In this document: positions 3,316-62,063 of the stretch, piece after piece
Layout: each line of letters begins with the position of its first letter
Position numbering within the stretch: position 1 is the stretch's first letter
Assembly (NCBI RefSeq): GCF_000025345.1
Contig: NC_013757.1
Location: 5,022,001 to 5,086,000 of the forward strand
DNA: 64,000 nucleotides
DNA from: Geodermatophilus obscurus DSM 43160
Lineage (GTDB): Bacteria; Actinomycetota; Actinomycetes; Mycobacteriales; Geodermatophilaceae
Direction of reading: 5' to 3'
The notes under the pieces: model-generated
Told to the model about the DNA's origin: nothing
Database searches by the model: none
Seen by the model: only the letters and a program-made list of their open reading frames with translations
Position numbers and translations under genes: made by a program

Positions 3316-3348
3316 CAGAAGGACCCCCCTGCCCCCCACCACTCGGAG

Positions 3349-3404
3349 AAGGACCCCGTCCTCCTCACCGTTCGCAGGCTCACGGTGAGCGCCTGGACGG
3401 GGCC
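3349..3404 (+). repeat. Hairpin repeat, copy A
   Basis: A 56-bp imperfect inverted repeat beginning AAGGACCCCGTCC and ending GGACGGGGCC, with an inner near-palindrome around CACCG/CGGTG. It follows the Fe-S reductase stop codon. A half-copy (GAAGGACCCCCC and onward) precedes it at about 3318-3346. The same layout recurs six more times in the window. In this position it could act as a transcription terminator. Confidence 0.85.
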
Positions 3405-16257: not shown

Positions 16258-16258
16258 A

Positions 16259-16338
16259 AAGGACCCCGTCCTCCCCACCCCTCGCACGCTCGGGGCGGGA
16301 CCCGGAACGGGGCCGGCGGCGAGCCTCTGGACGGGGCC
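16259..16338 (+). repeat. Hairpin repeat, copy B, with a second right end
   Basis: The best-preserved copy (16259-16314) begins two bases after a stop codon: AAGGACCCCGTCC at the left, CTCGGGGCGGG in the middle, ending AACGGGGCC. A second right-end half (TCTGGACGGGGCC) follows at 16326-16338. It lies between the convergent DosS-like and DosR-like genes and could terminate both. Confidence 0.9.
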
Positions 16339-21296: not shown

Positions 21297-21353
21297 AGAG
21301 GACCCCGTCCTCCCCACCCCTCGCACGCTCGGGGCGGTGCCCTGGACGGGGCC
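21297..21353 (+). repeat. Hairpin repeat, copy C
   Basis: A 57-bp copy (AAGAGGACCCCGTCC through GGACGGGGCC) directly after a stop codon. Its core CCCCACCCCTCGCACGCTCG is identical to copy B. Further right-end-like and CCTGCAGG palindromic fragments fill 21354-21430, so this spot looks like a site of repeated insertion or duplication. Nothing gene-like is seen between 21296 and 21575. Confidence 0.88.
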
Positions 21354-26791: not shown

Positions 26792-26848
26792 GAAGGACCC
26801 CGTCCTCCCCACCTCTCACAGGCTCAGGGTGGGACCCGGGACGGGGCC
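26792..26848 (+). repeat. Hairpin repeat, copy E
   Basis: A 57-bp copy (AAGGACCCCGTCCTCCCCAC through GGACGGGGCC), two bases after one stop codon and 17 bases before the stop of the convergent response regulator. The core differs from copies B and C (CTCACAGGCTCAGGGTGGG), with changes on both arms that preserve pairing. Confidence 0.88.
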
Positions 26849-57347: not shown

Positions 57348-57889
57348 GTGCGGGGTCTGGCGCGGCGCGAGTTCTGCCTGGTGCTGCTGCACCGGATGGC
57401 CGACCTGCGCCCGGACCTGGTGGCCGAGGCGCTCCCCCGGCTGGGCGCCACCCGCGCGGAGGCGCACACGGCGCACACCCGCTGGCAGTGGAAGGACCCC
57501 GTCCCCCTCCCGCCTCGCAAGCTCGGCGCGAGCCTCCGGACGGGGCCGACGGACCGCCCGAGGAGACCGCGGACCGCCGCTTCGGCGACCTGGACCTGGA
57601 GGTGCGCCGCTGGCCGGTGCCGCTCTGGCCGCACCTGTACTGGGAGGTGCTCACCGGCCCGGGCGGCAGCGTGCTGCAGGAGCACCTGGTGCGGGCGCCG
57701 GGCTCGCCCGTGCCGCGGGCCACGCCGGGCCGGCTGCTGGTGTGGGAGCACACCCTGGACGACGTGGTCGGCCTGCGCGGGGCGCGGAGCGTGGACCCCG
57801 GCGTGGTCATCCGCTGGGAGGTGCACCTGCCCGGCGACGTCCGCACCCGCTTCGTCTGGGGCCTGCTCCAGGCCGTCGACCGGCCGTGA
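57348..57889 (+). pseudogene. Hypothetical gene split by a hairpin repeat
   Basis: The first part (frame of 57348) reads [38 protein letters not shown] and TAHTRWQ, then enters repeat copy G and derails. Directly after the repeat, the +2 frame carries on with [48 protein letters not shown] and FVWGLLQAV to the stop at 57889. Removing 56 or 59 bases at the repeat restores one open frame of about 160 residues. A GTG at 57488 could still start the second part, so a shortened C-terminal protein may be made. I recall unnamed Geodermatophilaceae proteins with this joined order. Confidence 0.7.
57491..57547 (+). repeat. Hairpin repeat, copy G, inside a reading frame
   Basis: GAAGGACCCCGTCC at the left, a core CCCGCCTCGCAAGCTCGGCG, and GGACGGGGCC at the right. 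It is the only copy within a coding region; all others follow stop codons. Flanking duplicated target bases are not obvious. Confidence 0.88.
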
Positions 57890-57948
57890 TCATCGGTGAG
57901 TGGCGCCCGCGGTCGTCGCGTCGGCCAGCCACCTGCCGATGATCACGG
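57884..57948. repeat. Inverted repeat with GATCATCGG arms
   Basis: CCGTGATCATCGG (57884-57896) and CCGATGATCACGG (57936-57948) are perfect 13-base arms; pairing extends inward with GAGTGGC/GCCAC. The left arm includes the stop codon of the upstream pseudogene. It lies 11 bp from the stop of the NlpC/P60 gene, so it can terminate both convergent genes. Confidence 0.75.
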
Positions 57949-61197: not shown

Positions 61198-62063
61198 GCC
61201 GGGCCTGGTCGGCGCGCCGGCTGCGCGCCGAGACGACGGCGCTGCTGCGCGGCGCCGGCGAGCAGCTGCGCGGCCGGGACGTCGCGCTGATCGCCGCCGG
61301 GCTGACCTTCTACGCCGGCATCGCCGTGGTGCCGCTGCTGCTGGTCGCCTTCTCGCTCACCGCGCTGCTCACCTCGGCCGAGCGGGTGCGTGAGCTGAGC
61401 GACCGGCTCGCCCAGCTGCTGCCGCCGGAGCTGGGCGCTCCCGGGGCGCTGCGGACGCTGGCCGAGGCCGGCACCGGCCTGGACCTGCTGGGCTTCGTCC
61501 TGGCACTGGTCCCGCTGTCGTTCTACGGCGAGGGGCTGCGCCGGGCGCTGCTGCGCTTCACCCCCCGCCAGGACCGGCTGACCGGCTGGCGCGGTCGGCT
61601 GCTGGCGCTGCCGCTGGTGCTGGCCACGCCGTTGCTGATGTACCCGCTGCTGCTGGCCGCGTCGGCGATGGTGGACCTCACCGAGCAGGGCAGCGCGCTG
61701 GGCACCGTCGCCGTCGGCTACTACTCGGTGCTGTTCGCACTGACCGTGCCGCTGCTGTGGGGTTTCGGCGTGGTCGCGGCCGGGGACCTGCGCTGGCCGG
61801 CACTGGTGTCCGGCGTGCTGTTCACCGCCGCCTGCCTGTCGGGCTTCCTGCAGGGCTTCGCGATCTTCCTGGCCCTGCCGCTGGCGCTGGGCGCGCCGTT
61901 CGGCGGGCTGACGGTGGTCGGCGCGGTCGTGGCGATCAGCCTGTGGCTGTTCCTGCTGCACCTGGTCGTGATCGCCGGCTGGCTGCTGACCCAGTCACTC
62001 GACGGCCGGCTGCGGCGAGGAGCTCAGTCGTCGTCCGGCGGGCCGGAGTCCGACCGGCCCTGA
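61194..62063 (+). CDS. YihY/BrkB-family membrane protein
   Basis: A ~289-residue protein with six hydrophobic segments; the family signature RDVALIAAGLTFYAGIAVVPL opens the first. Other landmarks are GFVLALVPLSFYGEGLRRAL, LLALPLVLATPLLMYPLLL and FLLHLVVIAGWLLTQS. Role unknown; often mislabelled ribonuclease BN. No ATG or GTG precedes the first helix, and CTG at 61194 overlaps the upstream stop as CTGA, giving LSRAWSARRLRAET. The 3' end overlaps the penicillin-binding protein gene by 40 bases. Confidence 0.82.
   Translation: MSRAWSARRLRAETTALLRGAGEQLRGRDVALIAAGLTFYAGIAVVPLLLVAFSLTALLTSAERVRELSDRLAQLLPPELGAPGALRTLAEAGTGLDLLGFVLALVPLSFYGEGLRRALLRFTPRQDRLTGWRGRLLALPLVLATPLLMYPLLLAASAMVDLTEQGSALGTVAVGYYSVLFALTVPLLWGFGVVAAGDLRWPALVSGVLFTAACLSGFLQGFAIFLALPLALGAPFGGLTVVGAVVAISLWLFLLHLVVIAGWLLTQSLDGRLRRGAQSSSGGPESDRP

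Follow-up and report, generated by a model that had tools for sequence, protein, structure and literature searches.

For the spread of short palindromic repeats, RAYT transposases are the working answer. Rickettsia palindromic elements are palindromic repeats which enter protein genes, some of them in frame, and we know of no established mechanism for their entry. In Actinobacteria, terminators that lack a T run are a matter of debate. MITEs are short, non-autonomous elements with inverted ends. REPs that occur with RAYT (the GTAG REPs) are short, bulged, imperfect palindromes of 20-40 nt, present in hundreds of mostly extragenic copies, with a strand-specific foot and no gene of their own (PMC3733652, PMC8266576). 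CGTC REPs are palindromic and high-copy, carry CGTC at one end and have no known dedicated transposase, and no Actinobacteria are named among their hosts in the text of that paper (PMC3733652).

The repeat described here, from the family Geodermatophilaceae, shares the features listed above for GTAG REPs other than length, being 57 nt long. It differs from them in having no constant GTAG foot and no Y1 transposase (115 genomes), and in arriving with loss of target and nesting in its own loops. It resembles CGTC REPs in its palindromic form, its high copy number and the lack of a known dedicated transposase, whereas CGTC lies inside its stem, and length and stem differ. Like MITEs it is short, non-autonomous and bounded by inverted ends, but no target duplication was seen and no parent insertion sequence was found in the stretches compared. 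As with Rickettsia palindromic elements, copies can become part of proteins, antisense copies forming a CopA linker in two species; the sequences are unrelated as far as known, and the copies here are mostly extragenic and stop-anchored. The repeat works like REP or MITE elements yet is classed as neither, because defining features were looked for and not found.

The DNA analyzed (the window) is a stretch of 64,000 nt, G000:C1:5022001-5086000, from Geodermatophilus obscurus, whose genome is a single contig of 5,322,497 bp. Within it, a copy of the repeat lies between two pieces of one gene which stand in different frames. The features of this locus are as follows.

57348..57488, + strand: 5' piece of the broken gene, with a GTG start (MRGLARREF...AHTRWQ), matching the N-terminal region of the unbroken homologues from about 20 genomes
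57489..57550, + strand: 62-nt replacement segment, made up of 2 nt, the repeat and a further 3 nt, from alignments with relatives
57491..57547, + strand: core of the hairpin repeat, copy G, GAAGGACCCC...ACGGGGCC, from profile and covariance model hits and the fold
57551..57889, + strand: 3' piece of the broken gene in the other frame, ending in TGA at 57887-57889, 65-93% identical to homologues over 95 residues

When the downstream piece was used as a protein query, matches were obtained in 20 of the 26 genus genomes (one being G. obscurus itself, and two partial) and in eight named records, including G. africanus, G. siccatus, G. chilensis and Blastococcus. About 20 genomes of Geodermatophilus and Blastococcus have homologues that read through without a break, and in nearly all of them the frame continues back via AHTRWQALQHSPRAPRGLALRSAVLGPPEET. 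Because the homologues' frame runs through unbroken, the two halves form one protein of about 178 residues, as the sequence-only reading had supposed when it described a reading frame split by copy G and continuing in another frame. This protein had no match in Pfam. No match to a homologue was found in six genus genomes, and the gene therefore seems dispensable.

DNA alignment with five relatives, in all of which the site is unoccupied, placed the 62 nt of the window opposite 57 coding nt (19 residues), a net gain of 5 nt which breaks the frame of the gene. The event is an insertion with loss of target, a replacement rather than a clean insertion. It had been proposed that taking out 56 or 59 bases would rejoin the halves; this restores the frame, both numbers being 2 modulo 3, but not the protein, and the loss of 19 residues contradicts a clean insertion. 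The locus is a real case of gene disruption by a mobile palindromic repeat. Among the G. obscurus copies compared, those closest to the gene-borne copy agree with it at 52 of 56 positions. The stop codon of the broken gene is overlapped by an inverted repeat of another kind, CCGTGATCATCGG...CCGATGATCACGG, at 57884-57948; this inverted repeat is also present in G. africanus, while G011 and G017 have the hairpin family there instead.

Alignment of 29 copies was nearly gap-free over 57 positions, from GAAGGACC to GGGGCC. In the predicted fold, GG(A)CCCCGTCC/GGACGGGGCC forms the lower stem, while the upper stem carries a loop of 10 nt, TCGCANGCTC. Pairing was kept in 98.4% of cells and six pairs were altered on both sides, levels of pairing and compensatory change which none of 500 shuffles reached; the repeat is a hairpin of about 57 bases with compensatory changes. 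The 5' foot varies: what precedes AGGACC is mostly NAGA or NRGA, with GTAG occasional. A second subtype has CCCCTGC/GCAGGGG stems. A strict pattern was found at 40 exact places genome-wide in G. obscurus as against none for the reversed-pattern control, and the repeat is far beyond chance. Identical copies occur at 6, 5 and 3 separate places in this genome, as would be expected of recent spread. A profile search gave 118 copies in 860 kb of G. obscurus, which extrapolates to about 700 in the genome. A replichore bias of orientation was rejected, the 40 strict copies being split about evenly. The repeat carries no gene of its own, in keeping with its description in the sequence-only reading as a non-autonomous element without a transposase. 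Nothing in Rfam matched the region, a word search of the G. obscurus G-20T genome paper (PMC3035280) gave no description of the repeat, and no paper on MITEs in Geodermatophilaceae was found in the literature collection searched.

Covariance model matches were present in 105 of 115 Geodermatophilaceae genomes. A sample of 299 genomes of the order gave hits outside the family in just three, with 1-2 matches each, and the repeat is nearly confined to Geodermatophilaceae. Copy number differs sharply between close genomes, the per-genome counts being at least values. Genomes G026, G031, G033, G043, G055 and G076 were nearly repeat-free (0-5 matches) while relatives had dozens or hundreds, and such repeat-poor members provide a natural contrast for finding the mover. 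A tandem array of ~63-nt units, each a hairpin copy plus a short spacer (GACTGGAACGGCGCCCT...GGCGGGTGACG), was observed in G019 at 61290-61660 of the concatenated stretch (G019:C1).

The other copies in the window lie between genes, as had been stated earlier and as a simple gene caller agrees. They are listed here.

3348..3404, + strand: copy sitting inside what is left of an older hairpin (5' arm from near 3319)
16258..16314, + strand: copy immediately behind a stop codon; the right half of another copy comes next
21297..21353, + strand: copy after a stop codon
26157..26202, + strand: partial copy
26792..26848, + strand: copy 3 nt after a stop codon
38717..38773, - strand: copy located behind a stop codon and belonging to the second subtype (CCCCTGC/GCAGGGG stem)

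At the site of the copy at 16258..16314, relatives carry different copies.

Position counts were made with gene calls from a simple in-house caller. A stop codon stood on the 5' side of 163 of the 198 scored intergenic copies, and 102 of these 163 started 0-6 nt past it, compared with 18.7 expected under uniform placement in the same gaps, a pooled count which overstates independence because some sites are shared by descent. The 3' end had no such effect (7 observed, 14.2 expected), and in gaps between convergent genes 48 copies lay within 6 nt of the 5' stop as against 3 for the 3' stop. Post-stop anchoring was seen in every genome singly, with 28 copies in G. obscurus where 5.3 were expected. 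Of the 47 sites that could be tested, 36 had an unoccupied relative whose stop was at the same codon; therefore the element either reached a standing stop or was lost there. The anchoring may reflect target choice, selection for a role at transcript ends, or both, and copies placed after stops in sense orientation could act as transcript ends.

Further evidence of movement was obtained by comparing orthologous stretches of five relatives for unoccupied sites. In a GNAT acetyltransferase gene of G. obscurus near 4,953,702 (L123), 59 nt, with the repeat antisense to the gene, replace 63; the gene is intact in G001 and G023, and the G. obscurus product is split between frames. In an Oxidored_FMN gene of G. 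africanus (G001), which has further lesions, ~58 nt stand for ~65 in comparison with one relative only. The lengths lost and gained in the three genes (57/62, 63/59 and ~65/58) are near equal, which with three cases is only suggestive. Outside these genes, a copy in G011 lies inside the loop of a copy which stands alone in G017, with 9 loop nt lost, and similar loop-nested cases were found at G000:400341 and G000:361994 of the concatenated stretch. At G011:161840, compared with four relatives, 74 nt were gained for 5 lost, behind a stop that the relatives also have. At G011:180557-180606 of the concatenated stretch (G011:C18) the exchange was clean, 74 nt for 0, at the coding end of a gene; this copy has about 15 extra nt and adds about 25 codons in frame. 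Target loss per arrival thus ranged from 0 to ~65 nt, several arrivals losing just 0-5 nt, and no target-site duplication was visible at the resolved joints, where target bases were either lost or unchanged. Sister-site alignment, which the sequence-only reading had suggested, did find the unoccupied site of the broken gene, with 57 nt replaced rather than a clean gap.

The lost gene segments were also checked as special hairpins and were not unusual for coding DNA here. Flank complementarity as a count of nesting was dropped since it was little above the shuffled control, the controls sharing arms, and the nesting evidence therefore consists of the direct species comparisons only. An apparent intragenic copy at G000:55526 proved to be an artefact of a wrong start call in the relative. 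An antisense copy was also observed in the linker of a copper-transport ATPase gene (CopA) in species G010 and G058 (L075:1508-1560, L111:1505-1557); as read from the sequence, the frame in G010 is open through the copy, with about 20 residues added.

Taken at these sites, the comparisons support the appearance of the repeat at new places. The same observations bear on whether the copies are terminators that arose in place, the break in the gene being an assembly accident or independent decay. Post-stop position and a strong stem fit such an origin, but identical copies at many places, nested copies, unoccupied sites and two broken genes in one finished genome speak against it, as does the absence of any T run in the right flanks of the hairpins, and we consider it highly improbable. 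The element had earlier been set apart from terminators as one that enters new sites; the new sites are upheld by unoccupied relatives, while the contrast with terminators is not absolute, because most copies are sense-oriented just after stops.

If the repeat were a REP and a Y1 (HUH) tyrosine transposase moved it in trans, the short imperfect palindrome with a bulge, the high copy number, the mostly extragenic position and the asymmetric foot would all be accounted for. The Y1_Tnp domain (PF01797) of known RAYTs was however detected in none of the 115 Geodermatophilaceae genomes at Pfam sensitivity, with controls such as E. coli positive, and was absent also from the complete, 0.52%-contaminated G. 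obscurus genome. The GTAG foot, moreover, is not the rule. The proposed REP/RAYT pair is therefore refuted, at that sensitivity, for a resident enzyme, the RAYT-like gene for which a search had been advised was not found in the family, and what is left of this explanation is barely credible.

The repeat might instead be a MITE derived from an ordinary insertion sequence, of DDE or IS110 type, or the product of a reverse transcriptase encoded elsewhere in the genome. RVT_1 (PF00078) was present in 51 and IS110 (PF02371) in 76 of the 115 family genomes, and G. obscurus itself has seven IS110-type matches and one reverse transcriptase match. Repeat-rich G011, G013, G015 and G019, however, lack both, while IS110 is present in repeat-poor G026, G033 and G055; reverse transcriptase and IS110 were rejected as movers as their presence does not track the repeat. 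An autonomous element with the same ends was looked for in the stretches compared, as opposed to whole genomes, and scattered arm matches only were found. The earlier comparison with a MITE also fails on target duplication, and we regard this origin as improbable.

A serious rival, possible in our view if still unlikely, is that no dedicated enzyme is involved and that host replication or repair patches copies in, for example through a template switch in which a fork jumps to another hairpin and returns, or through a hairpin fragment being used to fill a double-strand break. Either route would give a copy together with a deletion and, in genes, a patch of about the length of the gap. Variable target loss without target duplication, the near-equal lengths in three genes and the failure of any tested transposase family to follow the repeat are all consistent with this. 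Host repair sits less well with constant ends (GAAGGACC...GGGGCC) at all sites and with arrivals that lost 0-5 nt, and the strong orientation, the 0-6 nt anchoring behind stops and the hundreds of copies point to a specific process.

The best reading is a mobile, REP-like hairpin family which either an enzyme moves or host repair copies, 0-65 target bases being lost. With a probability of roughly 0.6, copy G belongs to a mobile repeat, non-autonomous and hairpin-forming, which has several hundred copies, is nearly limited to Geodermatophilaceae and has a mover that is not a Y1 transposase. For the enzymatic form of this reading, a folded single strand of the element would be joined into exposed single-stranded DNA, such as hairpin loops, transcript ends or forks, the target between the two joints would be lost, and the mover would be an enzyme other than a Y1 transposase. 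The involvement of single strands is suggested solely by the preference for loops, and Y1_Tnp, RVT_1 and IS110 as tested do not follow the repeat, which counts against this explanation. So do the lack of an autonomous relative with matching ends in the stretches compared and the fact that the gene segments lost are ordinary as hairpins. That the hairpin is moved by a kind of enzyme not yet linked to such repeats, which joins it to single-stranded targets (loops, post-stop DNA) and replaces target rather than cutting or duplicating it, is a doubtful proposal that we make tentatively.

The interest of the repeat lies in mechanism, in a large family that lacks the known type of mover and whose joints show target replacement. 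The family is apparently recently active and spans more than 100 species with no Y1 transposase detected, and its unoccupied sites and nested arrivals record the joints; the question of spread can therefore be tested in culturable, sequenced bacteria. Such hairpins also disrupt genes and can supply proteins with in-frame linkers, and those that stand behind stop codons may set transcript ends.
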